Positions 11,151 through 21,747 of a DNA stretch of 64,000 bases are shown one piece after another; within the stretch, counting starts at the first letter, position 1, and each line of letters opens with the position of its first letter. This stretch comes from Nitrospira sp. (GTDB lineage: Bacteria > Nitrospirota > Nitrospiria > Nitrospirales > Nitrospiraceae). The stretch spans positions 124,001 to 188,000 of the forward strand of contig CP060502.1 of assembly GCA_024760545.1 (NCBI GenBank). The letters are read 5' to 3'. The notes beneath the pieces are model-generated. The model did not search any database. It saw only the letters and a list, made by a program, of their open reading frames with translations, and was not told the origin of the DNA. The position numbers and the translations under genes were made by a program.

Positions 11151-12989
11151 TTATGCAACGTCAAGATCTGAAAGCTTCCAGATATCTTTCACCAAGCCGA
11201 TCAGCATAGTTTGCCGCCTGTCAATTTCCTCAGGCGTCCAGTTATCAAACGACAGGAGTTTTTCGTTTATCCGTGTTGTCGAGGTGTTTTTCCCAACCTT
11301 GGTGATACCGGCAATACTGCTGGTTAGGTAGCACTTACATTTCGCGTATTCCGGTTTTTTAATCTCGAAGAAATCGTTACCTATGACGATATTAATGGGT
11401 TTTTCCAGCAGCGTAAGATTGCCTAGTTTGTTCTTAATCAGATTGTAGTCAAAGCCCGAGTACTTTTGGGCAAACTCCGTAGCAAATGCCTTTTTCGGCT
11501 TGTCTGGCAAAATATGTTCGATCTGAAGCTCTATATAATCCTCCAATGATCGTTCCGTCTTGATGCCTTTATAGGCCATGTCGACGTGCTGGCTTATTTT
11601 GGCCAACAGGTAGCGTGTCCGATATTTCTGCATCGAGCCCAGTGAATATCGCTTCATACTGTCTGTGAGGTCAGCAGCCTTGGCTGACATGCTCTTTTGG
11701 AAACGTGTGTTAATGAAGGCATTCAATTTTTCTCTTTGGGCTTTCTTGTTCTTCTCGTTCCCAATTTCTCGCAGCTCGTCTGCCCATACTGAGAAATTGC
11801 GCTCGAGTTCCTTTGTGGGCGTTTTGGTAAAGATATAGTAGAAAAGGAAACTCTCGAGTTGTGTAACCAGATGGTCGAACAATGCCTTGGGAAAATTGCT
11901 GGCTGCCAGTAGGAGGACAAAGTGTAAACTAAAGGCCGGGCCGCAAAGAAGCCCAAGGTTCTTCATTGCGACATTATCTCTGCCGTCATTACCATCGCCT
12001 TTGTTAAAGGCCAGGTAGTGATTGACGCTCTCGATGATTGTTCTCACAAACTGGAAAGGTTTCTCTTCATATTCGCAGTCAGCGGCATTCTCCTTCTTCG
12101 TAAGCCAATCATAAATTTCATCTTCCCGTACAATATAATCGCTGCGGTCATTCTGAATTTTGTAGCTTGCCATCAGAAAGTAGCGCAGAAATCGTAAAGG
12201 CTTTTGCTTTGCTCGTTCGAGCGGCTTGGTAATGTTTTTCCATTCGCTTTTCAATCGACCAAATTCCTGTGCTTCAACATTCGTGAATAGCAGGTTTTTC
12301 AGCAGGTCCATAGAATTCAGACCAACACCCCGCTCGTTGATCGTTTCAAATATCTTTAAGGCATTGCCGAGGTCGGTTGAGATCTGGATGAAGACAACGT
12401 TGTTGGCCAAATAGCCCCAGTATTTCTTCAATGCGGCCTTATCCGCGTGTTTCTTGAGCAAATGGGCGTAAATCGTGCTGTAGGCGTTCAGAAGATTCTC
12501 CAAAGAACCGAAACTGGCGATTCCGGAGGCCTCAATGCCATTGCGGGTCGCTTGAGGTTCATCTTCCATCTCCACGATTTTCGCCATTACTTCGCCGGCG
12601 TTTTCATAGCGCGGCTCTAATTTCAGGCTTGTCTTTGTCTCGCCTTGATTCGATGTGTAGCTGGCGGATATCAGGCCATTGATCGTCTGATATTGAGGTT
12701 CTCCGTGAAATAGTTTCTTCAGAGTGCAGAGGAGAAGGAAAAATGTTGTCAGCCTTTGCTGGCCATCGATCACTTCAAATGTGTTTTTCTGTGACGACGG
12801 CGACACAAGCACCATGCCAATGAAATATTCCTGGTTGGCTCTGCCATCAATCTGTTCATCGATGTCGTCGAGGAGTTGCTGTACTTCTTTGTCTTGCCAA
12901 ACATATTCGCGTTGATAATCAGGGACGATATAAAAACAGTCGCGGAATGCTTCTTCAACGCTGTATTTATGATTTTCAATTTTGGCCAT
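11151..12989 (-). CDS. GmrSD-like DUF262/DUF1524 nuclease
   Basis: This 612-residue protein has an N-terminal DUF262 (ParB/Srx-like) domain with VPDYQREYVW at 22-31 and the DGQQR motif at 75-79 (VIDGQQRLTTFFLL). Its C-terminal DUF1524 HNH-type domain carries IEHILP near residue 490 and, further on, a LGNLTLL motif and asparagine/lysine-rich segment. This is the single-chain GmrSD/BrxU plan: type IV enzymes that use NTP and cut modified phage DNA. Start ATG 12989 is preceded by an AGGGG ribosome site; an in-frame ATG 57 bp upstream is less likely. Such genes often accompany BREX because they attack modified phages that BREX misses, which is its likely role here. The specificity is not visible. 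Confidence 0.88.
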   Translation of the reverse strand: MAKIENHKYSVEEAFRDCFYIVPDYQREYVWQDKEVQQLLDDIDEQIDGRANQEYFIGMVLVSPSSQKNTFEVIDGQQRLTTFFLLLCTLKKLFHGEPQYQTINGLISASYTSNQGETKTSLKLEPRYENAGEVMAKIVEMEDEPQATRNGIEASGIASFGSLENLLNAYSTIYAHLLKKHADKAALKKYWGYLANNVVFIQISTDLGNALKIFETINERGVGLNSMDLLKNLLFTNVEAQEFGRLKSEWKNITKPLERAKQKPLRFLRYFLMASYKIQNDRSDYIVREDEIYDWLTKKENAADCEYEEKPFQFVRTIIESVNHYLAFNKGDGNDGRDNVAMKNLGLLCGPAFSLHFVLLLAASNFPKALFDHLVTQLESFLFYYIFTKTPTKELERNFSVWADELREIGNEKNKKAQREKLNAFINTRFQKSMSAKAADLTDSMKRYSLGSMQKYRTRYLLAKISQHVDMAYKGIKTERSLEDYIELQIEHILPDKPKKAFATEFAQKYSGFDYNLIKNKLGNLTLLEKPINIVIGNDFFEIKKPEYAKCKCYLTSSIAGITKVGKNTSTTRINEKLLSFDNWTPEEIDRRQTMLIGLVKDIWKLSDLDVA

Positions 12990-13112
12990 ATTTACCCCTG
13001 GAGTGTTCTTAAACGACAGATTATCAGGAGATTCATGAGAGCCCAAATCCTATCTTCACTGTCAATATGGTCTGTTCGTGCATTTTGATCGCCCCTTGCC
13101 GTATGAGGCTGC

Positions 13113-13715
13113 TTACCGTTCCCGGCCTTCGTCGCGGGATCTGACGCGCGCGGGTTCAATGATGGCGCTGCGTATGAGCTTTTCCATGTCGTCGTGTTTG
13201 CCTTGAAAACCCTGCACGGAGGCCTGGTGCCAGGTTTCCGGTGCGATGCGTTGCAGGTCTAGTTTGTGGCCAGCCTGTCGCGCAAGGATTTTGAGGAACT
13301 GGCGTTGCGCCCGGCCGTTGCCTTCGCGGAACGGGTGGATGGCGTTGATCTCGCCGATATGTTCGGCGGCGCGTTTGGCGAATTCGGCGCGGCGTAAACC
13401 TTTCAGCTTGTTTTCCTTCTGGATCATCTCAAACCGCTTCTTCATTTCCGTGTCCACGTGGTCGGGCGGTCCGAAAAACGTGCCTCCCTTGGCCATTGAG
13501 ACGGTGCGCGATTCTCCCGCCCAGTGATAAACATCCTGAAAAATATGCTTGTGGATCGCTTTGTAGCCTTCATACGTCATCGGTATATCAGGCAGAGGCT
13601 CCTGCATGCGCTTCATACTCATGATGCGCTCGAAGCGCTCAAGCTTGTCGGCTTCGCGGATATTCCTCTTGTTGTTGAGAACATCGGTGCCGGGATAGAC
13701 GTAAGGATCGCTCAT
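13113..13715 (-). CDS. Fic-domain toxin (VbhT/FicT type)
   Basis: This 200-residue protein carries the full Fic signature HPFREGNGRAQR at 127-138, with the catalytic His at 127. The flap region YHWAGESRTVSMAKGG near 63-78 is typical of class I Fic toxins. Fic enzymes transfer AMP from ATP to target proteins; bacterial toxins of this class often hit gyrase and topoisomerase IV. The start ATG 13715 overlaps the stop of the upstream antitoxin gene as ATGA, so expression is coupled. All catalytic residues are intact, so toxicity should depend on the antitoxin partner. Ends at 13113 with no overlapping downstream gene. Confidence 0.93.
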   Translation of the reverse strand: MSDPYVYPGTDVLNNKRNIREADKLERFERIMSMKRMQEPLPDIPMTYEGYKAIHKHIFQDVYHWAGESRTVSMAKGGTFFGPPDHVDTEMKKRFEMIQKENKLKGLRRAEFAKRAAEHIGEINAIHPFREGNGRAQRQFLKILARQAGHKLDLQRIAPETWHQASVQGFQGKHDDMEKLIRSAIIEPARVRSRDEGRER

Positions 13716-13942
13716 GCGGGATCGGGCAGGGGGATGCCGTAGGTGCGGTGCATCCACTCGTCAAGAAACTTGTCACGCTGTTCATAGCTCAGGCCGAGGC
13801 GATTCATTTCCGCGAAGGCGGCATCTTCTTCGGGCGTGAGGAAAATTCCTTCGCATGCGAGGGAAGCCTTGGCTTCCTTGCCGCGTTCAATCAGAGCTTC
13901 CAGCTCCTTGCCGGTGATGGGTTTATTTCTGTCAACGGTCAT
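13712..13942 (-). CDS. VbhA-like Fic antitoxin
   Basis: This 76-residue protein lies directly upstream of the Fic gene. It contains the Fic inhibitory motif (S/T)xxxE(G/N) as SLACEG at residues 27-32, where Glu31 is expected to block the ATP pocket of the toxin. Start ATG 13942 (MTVDRNKPITG) is preferred to an ATG 105 bp upstream, because the extra residues are proline-rich and unlike the family and a perfect TATAAT lies only 6 bp before 13942. The C-terminal part (RDKFLDEWMHRTYG) resembles other antitoxin-VbhA family members. It ends with an ATGA overlap into the toxin gene. Confidence 0.88.
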   Translation of the reverse strand: MTVDRNKPITGKELEALIERGKEAKASLACEGIFLTPEEDAAFAEMNRLGLSYEQRDKFLDEWMHRTYGIPLPDPA

Positions 13943-13948
13943 ATGTCT

Positions 13949-13954
13949 ATTATA
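13949..13954 (-). promoter_or_regulatory. Perfect -10 hexamer of the vbhA-fic operon
   Basis: On the minus strand the sequence reads TATAAT, then six bases, then the ATG of the antitoxin gene. Transcription would begin at or next to the start codon, giving a leaderless message; no ribosome-binding sequence is visible. The -35 region is weak (TGGCGC at 17-bp spacing), so an activator or another start site is possible. Confidence 0.5.
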
Positions 13955-14089
13955 GAGGAATGCCTGAAGCTGCGCCACGGGAACAAGGTCTGGGAACGCA
14001 AGCGAAGGGGGAAAAGAGGGAGAAGGCGGCGGCACTTTGGTAACCATGATCCAGTTTCCTTAATCACAAATGTTAATCGAGAGGATAAG

Positions 14090-14370
14090 AGAGTTTTTTC
14101 CCCGCAGCTATTCCCGGGCGCTCCCGGAATGCGGGCCGGGATAGCCGGCAGGTCACATGGGCTACACGGTTTTTCGGTGCGGGCCGCCCATTGACCTGAC
14201 GGCGCGGCCAGCCATGTGGCGCCAACCGGGAATCAGCGGGAAAGGGGTCTGACGAGACCGAGGGGAACAGGATACGGCCATTTCCGCAGTGTGCTGGCTC
14301 GGACTCCGGTACGCTGTGGGGGCGTGGATCAAGGGCCAGGGGTGAATTTGCGGAGTTAGGGTTTTGCAAG
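14090..14370. other. Gene-free, hairpin-rich intergenic region
   Basis: Between the Fic module and the DUF3800 gene there are about 530 bp without a convincing gene. The stretch is very GC-rich and full of imperfect inverted repeats. CTATTCCCGG pairs with CCGGGATAG (about 14108-14145), and CAGGTCacATGGG pairs with CCCATtGACCTG (about 14150-14198). There are GGCGC/GCGCC arms near 14200-14222 and GGTCTgacgAGACC near 14247. The open frames on the minus strand are arginine- and proline-rich and look like chance. It could be a structured RNA or a mobile-element remnant. Confidence 0.4.
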
Positions 14371-14470
14371 CGGATGAGGTGCGGCGGAGTTCCTCGTGTT
14401 TGTTGGCGAGGATCCTCGCACCACGCATCACCGCTTTCGGCTTAGTCTCAATAAGCTCCAATCTGCCCTT

Positions 14471-15619
14471 TCATTCATACGCGCTTCCGCGAGACCGAAG
14501 AAATACGTTCATCTTGCCAATTTCATTGGCGCTGGTAACGTGATCTAGGAACGCAATATTGGCCTCATGTGAGGCGTCGATGATGTCGCGTAGCAGTTCC
14601 GCGTTCTTCAGGCTGGTGCCAATCAAAGATGCACGCGCGGCAGAAACCTCATCGCGCGTGGTTCCTGCGAAGTAGCTGTACATTTTGCCGATTAGTCCCA
14701 CCACGATGTCTGATACCTGTATGCCCGGCTCGGATTTGGAATCGGCAAACCGGTAATTCTTTACTGGCTGCCCGCCTGATACCAGCTTCATAGATTGCAA
14801 ATCATCGCGAATGGAATCTTCCATATCAAGGATGTGGGTTGAATGTTTGAACAGCGCAATCCGTTTCAGATAGAAGATGGTGAAGCTCTCTATTAAAAGG
14901 TGAGGTGTGCACCCTTCAATGAAGTCGAGGCTAGGAAGATCGCGTCCCGCCTGCAACATGCCCTTGAGCATCATCGAATTAAATTCCGGCAGCACATCAT
15001 CGCTCTGCTCCAGCATTGAGATGAGTTCGTTCAGAAAGGGCTTGCGGTTCTCCGGAGCCAGGTCTGGATAGTTATAGCGGTAAAACAGACTGGTCGTTTC
15101 GGGCAGGTTGGCTCGAAGGAGTGCGGTCAGGTCCGCCTTTAGCCGAATATGAAGCTCCATTAGGCGCGGTTCGCCGAGCCTGTAAAGTATCGAGTCCATA
15201 ATATCGACGAGCGACCAGAAGAGCGGGTCGAGCGCATGATAGTGGACAAACAGGTCGTTATCGGAAATCCACTGTAGAAAGGTGGTCAATTTGTCTGACG
15301 TCAACAGATCGAGAAATTCGCCCTTGGCAACATGCTTGAGCTTGAGTTCGCCCGCGCTCCTTTGAATGTGCATCGCATTGCGCAATGACTCTGGGTCAAA
15401 ACTCCGAGGCGCACCGTCATGCACAACGCCGCCCAGCACAAATACACCAGGCTCCGTAACATTGAACCCCTGCACACCAAGGCGCAGCTTTTTAATGTTG
15501 TTCGTTTCGTCATGATAAAAGACATATTCTGCATCAGCCTTGGTAAGGCCATGCATGGCTAAATGCGCGTCCCGTATCTCATCTATGTCTACCAAAGCAC
15601 AAACCTCCGGATCAGCCAC
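14471..15619 (-). CDS. DUF3800-domain protein
   Basis: This 382-residue protein has the two hallmarks of DUF3800. An N-terminal acidic motif (YVFYHDETNN near residue 33) is followed by strand-like segments with FVLGGVV, and a late motif FADSKSEPGIQVSDIVVGLIG (roughly residues 293-313) has the conserved aspartates. The fold is predicted to be RNase H-like, with the acidic residues at a metal site. DUF3800 proteins are common in defence islands, but their biochemical role is unknown. It stands alone on the minus strand. A second, divergent DUF3800 gene occurs at 60805-61623. Confidence 0.8.
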   Translation of the reverse strand: MADPEVCALVDIDEIRDAHLAMHGLTKADAEYVFYHDETNNIKKLRLGVQGFNVTEPGVFVLGGVVHDGAPRSFDPESLRNAMHIQRSAGELKLKHVAKGEFLDLLTSDKLTTFLQWISDNDLFVHYHALDPLFWSLVDIMDSILYRLGEPRLMELHIRLKADLTALLRANLPETTSLFYRYNYPDLAPENRKPFLNELISMLEQSDDVLPEFNSMMLKGMLQAGRDLPSLDFIEGCTPHLLIESFTIFYLKRIALFKHSTHILDMEDSIRDDLQSMKLVSGGQPVKNYRFADSKSEPGIQVSDIVVGLIGKMYSYFAGTTRDEVSAARASLIGTSLKNAELLRDIIDASHEANIAFLDHVTSANEIGKMNVFLRSRGSAYE

Positions 15620-15887: not shown

Positions 15888-17465
15888 TTAAACGGCGTGA
15901 GCGAGTAAGTCGGTCTGTTTGAGGGGGCGGGCGTGATCTGGAAGGATCGCGGCGATTTCGGAGACAGGGACGTTGGCAAGTTCCTTGGGTTCGAGTTTAT
16001 GAAGGCCCCCGCCGTAAACCCTGCCTTCTGCCAAGAGGCGGTTTGGAGTGATCTGGTTGAGAAGGTGCCAGACGCGGCGTATCAGGTTCTTGTCATGGGC
16101 CATTGCGCGGGCAAGAACAGGAGTTGGGTACATGGCCAGATAGACATTGGCAACGGTGGCGCGTGATGTGTTCAAGAGAAACCGAAACGGCTTTCCGTCT
16201 TTGGTATCGGAACGTCCAAGGTAAGTGCAGACGATGGGCGCAGGCGGGCGGTTCTCTTGCGCGTACCAAAGTGAGCGATGTTGGCATAGATAGCGGTGAT
16301 GAAGGCCACGGGCCTTCCCATCCTCAAGGTAGCGGTGCAGGGCTGGGAAGCGGCGTTTGATTTGATCTTCGGGAAGTTTGGTATCGAGAAGAAAGCGGGG
16401 GCGGTCGATTTTGGGGTTGCCGTACCGGTCTGCCTTGATCTCGTTTTCAGGGAGGTAACGCGGGCTTGGCAGGATCGGGGTGAATAGCTCCATCGGAAGG
16501 TTGCGGGCTTTGATTTCTTCTTCCGTGAGAATGAAAAACTCGTTGTTGCCGGTCGCCAAACCGCGTTTGATCTGGAAAAAGTCTGAGATGGTCGGGATTC
16601 CTGTTTCGGTTCGGATGTCTGCGGCAGGAAACCGCGTCCATTTCGGCTCATGCGCGAGTGCTTGAGCGGATATGGTGCGGGATAGCTTGGGGGCCAGAAG
16701 TGTGCCGCCGAACGTAAATTGTACTGCGTGGTTTTTTGGGGGCGCAGTATTGCGGAACCAAACCACGGCAGAAGAAACAAGAGCGTCCGCGAATTGTATG
16801 TCGTTCGGGTCGAAGCGGTGAATGTGGAGAAGTGTTACCCCTTCGAGAAGGTAGCGCTTGACGGCTAGGCCGTAATTGACGTCCATGAATTCGCTCGGGA
16901 TGAGCCAACCAGCAATAGCTCCCACGTCCATCCATGCGTGAGATAGGCCAAGAAAGTGGCAGTAAAGACCGGCAAGGCCGCTGATTTTTATGCCGCTGGC
17001 CTGTTGGGTTCGCATTTGGAGGCGGGTTTTGTTGCCGTTCTCAAGGTGGTGGTGGCGCACATACGGCGGATTGCAGATGATGAGATTGAAGCGTGGTGAA
17101 GGCTCTGCCTTAGTGAAGTCGGAAAGCTTGATGGAAAGTCCGGTGTTCTTCCAGAGGTGTGTGGCTGGCTTTCCGTAGTGAGGGTCAACCTCGAAACCAA
17201 GAGCCTGTTGAATGCGTTTTCTGGGAAAGACGTTGAGGAGAGCGGAATAGAAGGCTCCGGTTCCGATTGCCGGATCGAGAAATCGGACTTTCTCGTGCGG
17301 GGGGAGGATCGTTTGAGCGTATCTGAGAATTTCCTCGGCAAGCGGTGATGGGGTCGCAAACTGACCGAGGCGGTTGCGCTCGGTTTGTGTCTTGTGGCTA
17401 TCGAGGTCGGCCTGTAGCTGGCGGCGCATGGTTTCGAGACTGACGATAGTGCGTGGCATGGTCAT
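15888..17465 (-). CDS. Adenine DNA methyltransferase of the XamI-type R-M system
   Basis: This 525-residue class I methyltransferase has a SAM motif I (FLDPAIGTGAFYSALL, near residue 68) and a catalytic NPPY motif (NLIICNPPYVRHHH, near 131), which indicates an N6-adenine methylase of the Eco57I/TaqI-like group. A GQFATP segment near the N-terminus is typical of these enzymes. The C-terminal half is the target-recognition domain. ATG 17465 overlaps the stop of the endonuclease gene as ATGA, so I prefer it over upstream starts inside that gene. It should protect the host from the endonuclease. By pairing with a XamI-type nuclease the expected target is GTCGAC, with methylation of the adenine; that is inference from family, not shown by sequence. 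Confidence 0.88.
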   Translation of the reverse strand: MTMPRTIVSLETMRRQLQADLDSHKTQTERNRLGQFATPSPLAEEILRYAQTILPPHEKVRFLDPAIGTGAFYSALLNVFPRKRIQQALGFEVDPHYGKPATHLWKNTGLSIKLSDFTKAEPSPRFNLIICNPPYVRHHHLENGNKTRLQMRTQQASGIKISGLAGLYCHFLGLSHAWMDVGAIAGWLIPSEFMDVNYGLAVKRYLLEGVTLLHIHRFDPNDIQFADALVSSAVVWFRNTAPPKNHAVQFTFGGTLLAPKLSRTISAQALAHEPKWTRFPAADIRTETGIPTISDFFQIKRGLATGNNEFFILTEEEIKARNLPMELFTPILPSPRYLPENEIKADRYGNPKIDRPRFLLDTKLPEDQIKRRFPALHRYLEDGKARGLHHRYLCQHRSLWYAQENRPPAPIVCTYLGRSDTKDGKPFRFLLNTSRATVANVYLAMYPTPVLARAMAHDKNLIRRVWHLLNQITPNRLLAEGRVYGGGLHKLEPKELANVPVSEIAAILPDHARPLKQTDLLAHAV

Positions 17466-18424
17466 ATTCCAAAATGCATCAAGTCGTCGATGCGGTGTTC
17501 CCATACCCAGTCGATGCCTTCGGCGGCTTCATAGCCAAGGTAGCCTGAGTCGAAGTATCCGCAGAGAAAGAGGTTGAATTTGACCTTGGTGCCGTAGGTG
17601 CTGCGAAGCTGTGACATTTTGACAGCTTCTTCTTTGCGGCGCTTGTTGGTGTTGGTGAAATCACCAGCGGATTTTGCCTCGAAGAAAACCGGGAAGTCTC
17701 CGGCCTGTGCTGACTTCGGCATAATGACGGCGTCGATGGGAATGTTGACGGTTTGAGTGCCGCCTTCGAGTGTGACCGGAACATTCATGCGGAAGCTGAA
17801 TGTTCCCGGGGTCATGGTGTCATACGTGGTTCCATCTCCTTGAGGGAGCTGGCTGTAGCCGCGTTGTTCGAGCCAAGCCTTGATAGCGGCCAGTTGGCGC
17901 TTTTCCTGTGCATTGCGGATGATGGGATTGGCAACTGCCCCGCAAAGGCGGTCTGCCACGATGGTGGCTGCGCGGTGAATTTCTGTTTCTGTCGGCAGGT
18001 CTTTCCGTCCAAGCCAAACGAAAATATCAGGATCGGCCATTTTTTGAATGATGGCTGAGATTTTGGCGAGTTGTTGATCGGCTTCGGTAACGCTCATTCG
18101 CATAGGGAGCTTTTTCTCAAGTTCCATGTACTTGACCAGATTCGGGGACACTCCGGCCAAGCCGATAAGCCTGTCGACGGCAATGGGCGGGCAGGTCGAC
18201 ATGCGCAGCGTGGGCAGAATTTCAGGATGCTGCCGGATTACGGATGGCTGGATCGAGAGAAGGTTGCCGGTTGAGGCAAGCGCAGCTTCTACGTCCTTTG
18301 TGGTCTGGATGCGCGTGGTGCGAAAAGCCTGAGGCGCAAATTTCATGAACCAGTCATTGTACATGTCAACGGACTGAGCGATGTCATTTTTCCATTGAAG
18401 GGTTTTGTCGGAGTTAACGGGCAT
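17462..18424 (-). CDS. XamI-family type II restriction endonuclease
   Basis: This 320-residue protein matches my recollection of the XamI endonuclease family. It has long helical segments with RMSTCPPIAVDRLIGLAG and TIVADRLCGAVANP, then a PD-(D/E)XK-like core with PIDAVIMPK (acidic residue) and DFPVFFEAKSAGD (the E-A-K pair) near residues 226-253. XamI cuts GTCGAC, the SalI site. The gene lies between a short ribbon-helix-helix gene (gap 6 bp) and the methylase gene (ATGA overlap), so the order is regulator, nuclease, methylase. Making the nuclease before the methylase would be dangerous on entering a new host unless the regulator delays it. Family assignment is from memory of conserved segments. 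Confidence 0.85.
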   Translation of the reverse strand: MPVNSDKTLQWKNDIAQSVDMYNDWFMKFAPQAFRTTRIQTTKDVEAALASTGNLLSIQPSVIRQHPEILPTLRMSTCPPIAVDRLIGLAGVSPNLVKYMELEKKLPMRMSVTEADQQLAKISAIIQKMADPDIFVWLGRKDLPTETEIHRAATIVADRLCGAVANPIIRNAQEKRQLAAIKAWLEQRGYSQLPQGDGTTYDTMTPGTFSFRMNVPVTLEGGTQTVNIPIDAVIMPKSAQAGDFPVFFEAKSAGDFTNTNKRRKEEAVKMSQLRSTYGTKVKFNLFLCGYFDSGYLGYEAAEGIDWVWEHRIDDLMHFGI

Positions 18425-18430
18425 TCTTCC

Positions 18431-18607
18431 TCACGCGTGTTTGGTGTTCTTGTAGATTGTCCATAGCTCGGTGAAAAGCTTGCGGAGGGAAATGTTGCGG
18501 CGGGCCGCTTCAACTTTCACTTCAGCGGCAAGATCAGGGGGAAGGCTGAATCCGACAATCTGGCGTGGCTGCAGGGTCTTGCGAATCGATGGCGGTTTAT
18601 TCTTCAT
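18431..18607 (-). CDS. Ribbon-helix-helix regulator of the R-M operon
   Basis: A 58-residue frame runs from ATG 18607 to TGA 18431. The core IVGFSLPPDLAAEVKVEAAR followed by RNISLRKLFTELWTIYKN has the beta-strand/helix/helix pattern of MetJ/Arc-type DNA-binding proteins. It ends 6 bp before the endonuclease start. The start lies 6 bp after a -10 hexamer, and no Shine-Dalgarno sequence is visible, so the message is probably leaderless, as for many R-M controller genes. It likely binds its own promoter, where the tandem palindrome TGTCGACA TGTCGACA (18618-18633) is an obvious candidate operator. R-M controllers are usually helix-turn-helix C proteins, so a ribbon-helix-helix one is less common. 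Confidence 0.82.
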   Translation of the reverse strand: MKNKPPSIRKTLQPRQIVGFSLPPDLAAEVKVEAARRNISLRKLFTELWTIYKNTKHA

Positions 18608-18613
18608 GTGAAG

Positions 18614-18642
18614 ATTATGTCGACATGTCGACAGCCTGTCAA
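18614..18642 (-). promoter_or_regulatory. Sigma-70 promoter of the R-M operon
   Basis: On the minus strand: -35 TTGACA (18642-18637, consensus), a 17-bp spacer, and -10 CATAAT (18619-18614, 5 of 6). The predicted start point falls on the regulator's ATG at 18607. The spacer is almost filled by two GTCGAC sites, the nearer of which shares its last base with the -10 hexamer. Confidence 0.8.
18618..18633. promoter_or_regulatory. Twin GTCGAC palindrome, candidate operator and methylation sensor
   Basis: TGTCGACA occurs twice back to back. Each 8-mer is itself a palindrome, and the 16-bp whole is a palindrome. Both contain GTCGAC (18619-18624 and 18627-18632), the recognition site of XamI. The site sits between -10 and -35 of the R-M promoter. 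It could be bound by the ribbon-helix-helix regulator, read out by methylation, or both. Confidence 0.65.
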
Positions 18643-18654
18643 TAGTGATCTGAT

Positions 18655-18666
18655 GGCTTGCAAGCC
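18655..18666. repeat. 12-bp palindrome between divergent operons
   Basis: GGCTTGCAAGCC is a perfect palindrome 12 bp upstream of the R-M -35 box. It lies in the 150-bp region between the R-M operon (left) and the SPARTA operon (right), so a protein bound here could affect both. Confidence 0.45.
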
Positions 18667-18757
18667 GAGGAGAAAAAGCACTGATTAGAGAAGGTTGGTT
18701 TTATACGGAGCAAGGAGTACAAGATATGATTCTAAATACAAGGAAAGCGACATTCCG

Positions 18758-20221
18758 ATGAAACCCAGACCGGCCATTTTTATCAGCCACGCGAATCCCG
18801 AGGATAATGACTTCGCGATTTGGCTCGGTTCACACCTGAGCGGCGCAGGATACGAGGTTTGGGCAGATGTCCTGAAACTCCGCGGTGGAGAGGATTGGGC
18901 GCGAAAGCTTGAGAAGGCATTGCGAGAGAGAGCTTTCAAGATGCTTCTAGTCGGGACACCGTGGGGTGTTGAGAAAGACGGGGTGCGGAATGAAATCCAG
19001 ATTGCTACAGAGGTGGCAAAGAAAATAGAAGACGGAGAGTTTGTTATCCCGCTGCGGCTGCAACAATTCGACTCTCCTTTCCAGATTGTACGGGCTCAAT
19101 ACATTGATTTCATGAATGGTTGGGGGCGGGGGCTGAGTGAACTGTTTAAGACCTTGGAGTCTTATAGCGTTCCGCGGACGCCTTCAGCGAATAGTGATAG
19201 TCTTGAGAATTGGCGGGGCGCCTTCCTTGTGAAAGCAAAGGCGGTTCGGGACCAGCCCGAGGAGCTGATTTCCAATTGGCTGGCGATTACGGAATTGCCG
19301 AACGCGATTGCATATTTTGAGTTTCTGGGCGCGGGGGCGGAGGAGCGAGCCGCAGCTTTGAAGGCAAGTTCGCGGTGGCCTGTCGCACTGCATGGGCATG
19401 GTTTTTTCTCCTGCGCGAAAGAGACAGATTTTCAGTCAGAGCACGGATGCGCGTTGCCAATCTCGCGCGAGAAAGAGTGGTGGTTCCCGCACTTCCTTGA
19501 GAATGGGGATGAGATGCGGTCCATAGGCAGGAGAGAAGCACAGAACATTGTGACTCAACTGATAAAAAGCGCGCTGGAAAACAAATTACGGGAGAGCAAA
19601 TTGTCTCGGTACGGCTTTTCCACAGGGGTTTCTGGGTGGTGGGTGCATTCAGGATTAATTCCAGAGGACAAGGTAGCCTTTAAATGGAACGATGGGCCGA
19701 GTGGCAGAAGACAGCTCGTAGGGGATGCAAGTGTTGGGGTATCGAAGTACAAATGGCATTTTGGTATCTCAGCGAAGATATGGATTGGCGAGACCCCCCA
19801 CGTAAAGCTGATTCCCCGAATAATACTGTCCGAGGATGGCAGCACAGCGCTTGACGATGCTAAACGGATGAATCGTCTGCGGCGATCCGTGACAAAATCG
19901 TGGCGGAATCCTCGATGGAGGGACATGTTATTAGCACTCTTGTTCTGGCTGGCGAAGGGAGAACGCTGCATCTGGCTGGAGACCGGATCCGAATCAGGAT
20001 TGTCGTTGGAAGTGCCACCCATGTCGATGACTTCCGGCGTGTCCATCTTCGAGGGAGAGGGAGAGACAACAGGAACAGAAGAGGTGGAAGTCGAGAGTGA
20101 TGACCCTGCCTTTGTGGAAGAGTACGAGGACTATGAGGAAGAGAGCCCTTCCGAAGGGGAGGGGGATACTGTGATTGAGGACAAAATCGATCCGGGAGCG
20201 ACCGGGAGTTTGAGTCCATGA
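18758..20221 (+). CDS. TIR-APAZ protein of a SPARTA system
   Basis: The 487-residue protein (from ATG 18758, MKPRPAIFISHANPED, preceded by an AAGGAAA ribosome site) starts with a TIR domain. The family motifs are IFISHA at 7-12, the loop region LRGGEDW at 41-47 and VRNEIQIA at 76-83, where Glu79 is the expected NAD-hydrolysing residue. The rest is the APAZ region that packs against a short Argonaute, followed by a strongly acidic tail over roughly the last 45 residues (for example EEYEDYEEE). In SPARTA, guide-directed recognition of invader DNA makes the TIR-APAZ/pAgo complex oligomerise and deplete NAD(P)+, killing the infected cell. The stop overlaps the pAgo start as ATGA. The frame is intact. 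Confidence 0.93.
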   Translation: MKPRPAIFISHANPEDNDFAIWLGSHLSGAGYEVWADVLKLRGGEDWARKLEKALRERAFKMLLVGTPWGVEKDGVRNEIQIATEVAKKIEDGEFVIPLRLQQFDSPFQIVRAQYIDFMNGWGRGLSELFKTLESYSVPRTPSANSDSLENWRGAFLVKAKAVRDQPEELISNWLAITELPNAIAYFEFLGAGAEERAAALKASSRWPVALHGHGFFSCAKETDFQSEHGCALPISREKEWWFPHFLENGDEMRSIGRREAQNIVTQLIKSALENKLRESKLSRYGFSTGVSGWWVHSGLIPEDKVAFKWNDGPSGRRQLVGDASVGVSKYKWHFGISAKIWIGETPHVKLIPRIILSEDGSTALDDAKRMNRLRRSVTKSWRNPRWRDMLLALLFWLAKGERCIWLETGSESGLSLEVPPMSMTSGVSIFEGEGETTGTEEVEVESDDPAFVEEYEDYEEESPSEGEGDTVIEDKIDPGATGSLSP

Positions 20222-21747
20222 AGCTAGATTACATCAAAGAGCCGAAGCTGGAGTTTTCATTCGGCCAGCACGAAGAACACCCCCGGGACGGACTGTTTCT
20301 GTATGGTCCTATCAAGGATAGCGCGGCGCCGGAGACGCTACGTTATGGAGTGATCGGTACACCGAAGGGAATTGAACGGTTCAGCAGGTGGTCTCAATCG
20401 ATCAGCGGCTATATCAAGCGATTTGAGCCAAGGCTAAACCCTGAGGCCCAGCATCACACATCGTTTCCGGGGTTCGAGAGCGTCTTTCGATCGAAATGGC
20501 CATCTGAGCCATTGGCAAGAATTATTGTGCCGGATACCGAGATCGAACGTGCCATGAGAATCGCCAATCGCTTCGAGGCGGTAAAGCGTGCCGTAGACCT
20601 ATATGTGGATCCATTGATCAAGTATTCACAAAAAGAGGAGGCGGAGCCCGCATTCTGGTTTGTTGTAATACCTGAGATCGTCTACCGGTTGGGGAGGCCG
20701 ACCTCGAAGGTCCCGAAAGGCGAAGCGATTCAAGGCAGTGTGATCATTTCTCAAAGAAAGGCGAAATTAATAAAGATGGCACCAACGCTGTTTGGATTGG
20801 ATGAAGAAGAAGCGGAAGTTTACCTTTATGCTAAGAATTTCCGGCGGCAACTCAAGGCAAGGCTGCTAAAGGACAAGATTGTCACGCAAATCGTTCGTGA
20901 AACGACACTAGCCCCGGAAGACTTCAAAACTTCTTTTGGTGGGCTTCAGCGAAAGGTGGAAGATCCTGCGACGATAGCCTGGAAGCTGTGCACCGCAGCC
21001 TATTATAAAGCGGGCGGGAAACCGTGGAGATTGTCAGGTGTGCGCCCCGGGGTTTGCTATGTAGGCTTGGTGTACAAACAGACAGATCCAGACGGTGATG
21101 ATCCCAATGCCTGCTGCGCAGCGCAGATGTTTCTTGCGTCCGGGGACGGAGTCGTATTCAGAGGTGCTGTTGGTCCTTGGTATACGGCTTCGAGCAAAGA
21201 ATATCATTTGAAACAGAGCCCGGCAGCGCAATTGATGTCTTTGGTTGTCTCGGAATATAAGCGCTTGCACGGCAATGAAGAGCCAAAAGAGCTTTTTATC
21301 CATGGACGATCGCGATTCAACGAGGAGGAATGGGCAGGGTTTCAATCAGCCGTGCCATCTGCGACGAATCTGGTCGGTGTTCAAATTCGTGATGCAAAAT
21401 CCGAACTAAAGTTGTTCAGGCCGGGAGCATTTCCGGTGATCCGGGGAACCGCGCTCAAGGTTTCTGATCGAGCGGCGTATTTATGGACGAGCGGATATGT
21501 TCCAAGACTAAACACCTACCTTGGACCTGAAACACCGAACCCGGTTTTTGTGAACATTCAGAAAGGTGATTGTTACCAGGACACGGTGTTGGCGGATGTC
21601 ATGAGATTGACGAAGCTTAATTACAACACATGCCTGTTTAACGACAGGCTGCCGGTTACGATAAAATTCGCGAATGCGGTGGGAGAAATTCTGGTGTCCG
21701 CTCCGCAGACGGAAGAACCAAAGCTTCCTTTCAAATTCTATATTTGA
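20218..21747 (+). CDS. Short prokaryotic Argonaute (SPARTA)
   Basis: This 509-residue protein has the length and context of short pAgo proteins, which contain only MID and PIWI domains. PIWI-like segments are visible (VCYVGLVYKQTDPDGDD, ELFIHGRSRFNEEEWAGF, and the C-terminal LPFKFYI). I do not see a DEDX catalytic tetrad, as expected for short pAgos that bind guide and target without cutting. It starts inside the stop codon of the TIR-APAZ gene (ATGA overlap), and the two products form a heterodimer in known systems. The protein should load a guide RNA and sense complementary DNA, typically from high-copy plasmids or phages. Confidence 0.9.
   Translation: MKLDYIKEPKLEFSFGQHEEHPRDGLFLYGPIKDSAAPETLRYGVIGTPKGIERFSRWSQSISGYIKRFEPRLNPEAQHHTSFPGFESVFRSKWPSEPLARIIVPDTEIERAMRIANRFEAVKRAVDLYVDPLIKYSQKEEAEPAFWFVVIPEIVYRLGRPTSKVPKGEAIQGSVIISQRKAKLIKMAPTLFGLDEEEAEVYLYAKNFRRQLKARLLKDKIVTQIVRETTLAPEDFKTSFGGLQRKVEDPATIAWKLCTAAYYKAGGKPWRLSGVRPGVCYVGLVYKQTDPDGDDPNACCAAQMFLASGDGVVFRGAVGPWYTASSKEYHLKQSPAAQLMSLVVSEYKRLHGNEEPKELFIHGRSRFNEEEWAGFQSAVPSATNLVGVQIRDAKSELKLFRPGAFPVIRGTALKVSDRAAYLWTSGYVPRLNTYLGPETPNPVFVNIQKGDCYQDTVLADVMRLTKLNYNTCLFNDRLPVTIKFANAVGEILVSAPQTEEPKLPFKFYI

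Follow-up and report, generated by a model that had tools for sequence, protein, structure and literature searches.

The promoter of a restriction-modification (R-M) operon of Nitrospira sp. carries two adjacent GTCGAC sites, and the comparative data indicate that this twin site is very probably the operator of a small ribbon-helix-helix (RHH) regulator, which is encoded by the first gene of the same operon. The window, being the whole stretch of 64,000 nucleotides that was analysed (contig CP060502.1, positions 124,001 to 188,000), contains this operon on its minus strand, with the following genes:

18431..18607, minus strand: 58-residue RHH regulator (weak Pfam match, structure model, family alignment)
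17462..18424, minus strand: XamI-family restriction endonuclease (PF09572, E=6.2e-131; PADLOC REase_II)
15888..17504, minus strand: Eco57I-type N6-adenine methylase (PF07669, E=7e-10; PADLOC MTase_II, E=4e-138)

The order of regulator, XamI endonuclease and methylase, already proposed in the sequence-only reading, is confirmed by the open reading frames, Pfam and PADLOC. The endonuclease matches PF09572 with 435.9 bits (cut-off 25) over profile positions 2-256 of 256 and is a full-length member of this family. The PF07669 methylase is encoded downstream of it, the start of the methylase gene overlapping the end of the endonuclease gene, and the BseCI methylase is the sole match when the PDB is searched with the methylase sequence. 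The operon shares the full-length PF09572 endonuclease and the adjacent adenine methylase with other XamI/PF09572 systems, but most of the collected members of this group have neither the RHH regulator nor the twin site. The promoter region of the operon is composed of the following elements:

18637..18642, minus strand: -35 hexamer TTGACA (direct sequence reading and consensus scan)
18627..18632, minus strand: first GTCGAC box, putative upstream operator half (sequence, alignment, position profile)
18619..18624, minus strand: second GTCGAC box, putative downstream operator half (sequence, alignment, position profile)
18614..18619, minus strand: -10 hexamer CATAAT, the first base pair of which is the last of the second GTCGAC box (direct reading and consensus scan)
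GTCGACATGTCGAC: twin-box sequence of the RHH promoter, the predicted binding site of RHH

The promoter (18642-18614) matches the consensus at 11 of 12 bases, and it is the only promoter-like (sigma-70-like) site found when 18400-18800 is scanned with the consensus, where shuffled sequences predict 0.3. The sequence-only reading had placed both sites within the spacer; the hexamers, the 17-bp spacing and both GTCGAC sites are as described there, but the second site is not fully inside the spacer, as it shares position 18619 with the -10 hexamer. The predicted transcription start, 7 bases past the -10 hexamer, coincides with the A of the RHH ATG at 18607, and the message of the RHH operon is therefore probably leaderless. 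It had also been noted that GTCGAC is otherwise scattered and that the tandem pair is special, which agrees with the counts: the window has 21 GTCGAC sites versus 20.9 expected, being no enrichment, whereas for an exact pair with the observed pitch of 8 bp the expectation is about 0.007 per window, by arithmetic from the GTCGAC density of the window. In the whole 4.81-Mb genome there are two copies of GTCGACNNGTCGAC (about 0.5 by chance at the window density), the second of which (L109) falls within a coding frame, and the 16-mer TGTCGACATGTCGACA is present as a single copy.

For the regulator the Pfam match to RHH_1 is weak (E=0.15). Its AlphaFold model, calculated with 12 relatives as input, has an extended segment followed by two confidently predicted helices (pLDDT 81), and the solved structures closest to this model are those of the RHH proteins StnY, CopASO, CdbA, Arc and CopG, with probabilities up to 0.98 and with E-values of which none is individually significant. 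The model supports a strand-helix-helix RHH fold for the 58-residue protein. When the regulator is put in the RHH register, with its Pro23 on Pro15 of Arc, the DNA-facing positions of the strand would be Ile17, Gly19 and Ser21; Ile17 and Gly19 are invariant across the alignment of the RHH family, in which the RHH proteins of the other systems are just 40-60% identical to that of the window.

The conservation of the twin site was assessed with relatives of the endonuclease that were collected by similarity to the endonuclease of the window, without regard to their promoters. A homologous RHH gene is found directly upstream of the endonuclease in 11 loci, including the window, and a perfect GTCGACNNGTCGAC precedes the RHH gene in 10 of these; the remaining locus, L080, has an intact RHH gene and the upstream sequence GTCGTCGCGTGGAC, in which both boxes are altered. 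No twin pair is present up to 700 bp upstream of the endonuclease in any of the 82 loci without RHH, so that the co-occurrence is 10/11 versus 0/82 (Fisher p 1e-12, taking the loci as independent and ignoring their kinship). A later set, taken from viral contigs, has ten RHH-bearing loci, which include near-copies of one another or of viral loci found by the RHH search; the perfect pair is present in nine of them and has one mismatch in the tenth, and the twin is seen in none of the three RHH-less loci of this set. When all sets are pooled and near-identical copies are counted once, there are 20 distinct RHH-bearing systems, 18 with a perfect twin and two with a degenerate one. One box is altered in L121. 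An in-frame stop interrupts the RHH gene of L064, which is among the 18, and damage of both elements is found in L067 (frameshifted RHH gene, one damaged box) and L040 (remnant of RHH, no box left). Conservation of the twin in related operons, for which the sequence-only reading had asked, is therefore borne out by the alignment as far as RHH-bearing systems are concerned, but the twin is not a property of operons with a XamI endonuclease as such: it follows the RHH gene, and about 90 XamI-family systems without this RHH (all sets) have no such pair upstream. The RHH-bearing systems occur in several bacterial groups, on plasmids and on viral contigs, and the presence of RHH is scattered on the endonuclease tree (seven changes, at least five of them forced). 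The endonuclease of a genome of the same genus as the host is identical to that of a Nitrospira assembly, in agreement with the Nitrospira origin of the window. On the viral contigs L119, L120, L121 and L122 the RHH-R-M cassette is seen, by eye, directly 3' of a gene resembling that of the phage terminase large subunit.

Searches starting from the RHH protein give a similar picture. All inspected strong matches on plasmids and in viruses adjoin XamI-family systems, and the perfect twin is kept in plasmid systems of which the endonuclease is just 21-23% identical to that of the window. In these plasmids the gene order is RHH-methylase-endonuclease (L105), or the RHH gene is convergent to the endonuclease and methylase genes, not upstream of them (L106, L107). 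No strong members besides the seeds are found in the RHH-first searches of 396, 385 and 369 genomes; the weak matches are in other contexts, several of them, by eye, adjoining PIN-like proteins.

The position profile, aligned on the twin, shows 1.65-2 bits for the 12 hexamer positions and about 0.3 bits for the two spacer bases, and all positions outside the twin are below 0.8 bits, except for one base of the -35 region at 1.0. Because the hexamers are constrained and the spacer and flanks are variable, the constrained unit is two 6-bp palindromes at a pitch of 8 bp. In about 11 of 16 aligned loci a TTGAC -35 element precedes the twin box by 9-12 bp, the -10 region overlaps the downstream edge of the twin box, and the placement between -35 and -10 is kept in most loci. 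As judged from the aligned sequences, the layout is that of a repressor operator. Since the twin follows the RHH gene and not the endonuclease, its main role is most likely that of the RHH operator, an assignment that the sequence-only reading had not made. The dimers of the RHH proteins MetJ and Arc bind adjacent short boxes, the MetJ operator being formed by tandem 8-bp palindromes, and by analogy a paired-dimer mode of binding on adjacent boxes would be expected here. This comparison concerns the predicted binding mode; no sequence relationship with MetJ or Arc is shown, and these proteins have another operator and no methylase.

The recognition sequence of XamI is GTCGAC, and by this analogy the twin sites are very likely also the target of the R-M system of the window itself. 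It is unlikely to be a coincidence that the conserved operator is exactly the XamI target, twice, and is found beside XamI-family R-M systems only. Because the core of the operator is the known XamI target, the methylase should methylate the operator, and if GTCGAC is the target, methylation of the operator by this enzyme can be anticipated with good confidence. The published GTCGAC methylomes met in the literature searches are those of m5C enzymes of the HgiDII/BbrUII type, with none of the XamI type. The flanks of the RHH-bearing loci have one GTCGAC versus 10.4 expected, other palindromes being depleted as well, and no clear depletion is seen in the window and the host contigs; avoidance of the site thus gives no clear backing to GTCGAC as the target. 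The endonuclease genes of RHH-bearing systems contain 16 GTCGAC sites versus 3.9 expected. Inside the endonuclease gene of the window there is a pair of GTCGAC sites 22 bp apart (18173-18200; +224 and +246 from the endonuclease start), as also in L064, L072 and L080. This intragenic pair is found in 4 of 11 RHH-bearing endonuclease genes versus 1 of 82 others, and it may be due to codon choice, as the encoded residues are conserved. In three related systems, two or three GTCGAC sites are clustered at one place of the methylase gene, just past the GTGSFY motif (L006:3046-3065; L014, about +1190, and L040, about +1292 from the endonuclease start).

GTCGAC is also found beside a second small gene. 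In four actinobacterial plasmid systems of a second PF09572 subfamily (Gordonia L180; Rhodococcus L181, with its copy L191; Micrococcus L183; M. kansasii L186), a conserved 75-residue protein, unrelated to RHH and presumed to be a regulator, is encoded ahead of the methylase. All four have one or two GTCGAC sites within 60 bp of the start of this gene, where 0.02-0.06 are expected per locus, this being a post hoc association, noticed after that of the RHH group. In L180 and L183 two GTCGAC sites are 14 bp apart, with a -10-like sequence between them (GTCGACGCTATAACGTCGAC and GTCGACGGTATAGCGTCGAC, respectively). The Agreia system, which lacks the 75-residue gene, has no GTCGAC at the corresponding place. 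The 75-residue protein has no match in Pfam and its searches give none in the viral contigs. The presence of promoter-region GTCGAC sites beside a second putative regulator makes a link with methylation more likely. The rule is not general: the Pseudomonas plasmid L192 has an unrelated RHH-like gene (1052-1212), preceded by a long palindrome, TTTTGGATACACAAATGTGTATCCAAAA, without GTCGAC, which is apparently a different operator, and L063, having another small gene, does not follow the rule either. These two cases show that GTCGAC promoter sites are a property of particular regulators. In several sphingomonad and rhodobacterial XamI plasmid systems (L178, L179, L106, L107) the gene ahead of the methylase gene belongs to the HigA family and has no annotated toxin partner; it may act like a C protein. 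It is not claimed as a further case, as GTCGAC occurs in two of these plasmids, which are nearly identical, and is missing from the other two.

The reading that we consider the most probable, with somewhat better than even confidence in it as a whole, is that RHH is an autorepressor of the RHH-endonuclease-methylase operon which reads the methylation of its operator. Two RHH dimers would bind side by side to the palindromes spaced by 8 bp, in the manner of MetJ and Arc, between the -35 and -10 hexamers, and would exclude RNA polymerase, by which the operon would be autorepressed. The methylase would place as many as four N6-methyladenines on the operator, in the major groove, which is the one that the RHH ribbon would read. 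RHH would bind to the unmethylated operator and let go on methylation, such that the full level of endonuclease would be reached only after the cell is protected; the early methylase would come from leakage under repression or from a hypothetical internal promoter. That methylation changes the binding of RHH at all is, on the sequence data, evenly balanced, and that it releases RHH, instead of stabilising the complex, is a tentative choice: release is favoured, with stabilisation almost equally plausible, and methylation may also have no effect. The methylation-reading mechanism has its difficulties. Both boxes are altered in L080 and one in L121, by which strict identity with the target is not needed everywhere; the licensing of the endonuclease requires that methylase be made while the shared promoter is repressed; and the RHH gene of L106 and L107 does not precede the endonuclease and methylase genes. 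The same mechanism with the opposite sign, by which RHH prefers the methylated operator and the operon is off when the cell is protected and on when methylation falls, is consistent with the same comparative evidence and needs no second methylase promoter. It is rather unlikely, as N6-methyl groups in the major groove hinder the contacts of a β-ribbon more often than they help them.

It could well be, and this is a substantial possibility, that RHH is a plain autorepressor of which the operator is identical to the R-M target by ancestry or tolerance, with methylation having no regulatory effect. An operator alone fully accounts for the co-occurrence with the RHH gene, and L080 and L121 keep RHH without a strict GTCGAC in both boxes; but the conserved block is exactly two known XamI hexamers, the RHH-first searches place RHH beside no systems other than XamI-family ones, and GTCGAC goes with a second, unrelated family of putative regulators as well. 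A direct effect, as proposed in the sequence-only reading, in which methylation or cleavage of the promoter alters the binding of RNA polymerase and no regulator is needed, has the overlap of the GTCGAC sites with the promoter in its favour, as well as the precedents of CfrBI, AhdI and LlaDII (PMC12707154). This explanation is improbable, because the approximately 90 RHH-less XamI-family operons are without the twin, and it does not need the exact 8-bp spacing of the two sites. Chance, or simple common descent of unconstrained upstream sequence, would agree with the chance frequency of GTCGAC in the window, but it is ruled out for practical purposes by the twin-box alignment: both hexamers are kept where the spacer and flanks have diverged, and the perfect twin is preserved in 18 of 20 distinct systems of several classes and on mobile elements, of which the RHH proteins have the low identity to that of the window given above. 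Regarding the RHH and the 75-residue protein together, XamI-type systems may, as a speculative extension, have evolved at least twice a repressor with the target as its operator, reading methylation and freeing the endonuclease when this is safe.

For type II R-M systems it has long been asked how the endonuclease is held back while a new host is still unprotected, and the known answers are a timing delay by C proteins or, rarely, direct methylation of the promoter. If the methylation-reading mechanism is true, a dedicated repressor with the R-M target as its operator would be the simplest sensor of the state of protection. Type II systems with C proteins, such as Kpn2I, likewise have a small regulator gene before the endonuclease gene and operator boxes at their own promoter; C proteins are, however, helix-turn-helix proteins and their C-boxes are unrelated to the R-M target, whereas the regulator of the window is RHH-like and not helix-turn-helix, according to the model and structure matches, and its operator is the predicted target. 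CfrBI, AhdI and LlaDII are documented cases of control by promoter methylation, which is called apparently rare (PMC12707154). In these systems the own target is in the promoter of the own genes and its methylation can set expression (PMC12707154). The two GTCGAC sites of the window promoter would be placed likewise if GTCGAC is the target of the system, and their methylation might then affect transcription. In CfrBI a site lies where divergent promoters overlap and a dedicated regulator is lacking, as against two tandem sites and an RHH gene here. Omega and PaaR are RHH autorepressors acting on repeated boxes in toxin-antitoxin operons; in these polycistronic operons RHH is also encoded first (PMC3874152), and the autorepression predicted here would be of this kind, but none of the enzymes of those operons has the boxes as its target. 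Searches of the open-access literature gave no account of R-M systems controlled by RHH proteins, of XamI regulation or of a regulator with the R-M target as its operator.

The R-M operon lies in a defence island. Divergent from it, at 18695-21747 on the plus strand, is a SPARTA-type defence system composed of a TIR-APAZ protein and a short prokaryotic Argonaute (PADLOC E=3e-144 and 2e-210). Downstream of the operon, at 11151-15619 on the minus strand, there are genes of a GmrSD-like protein, of a Fic protein, with a small ORF of 111 residues ahead of it, and of a DUF3800 protein, which matches the PADLOC candidate PDC-S51.
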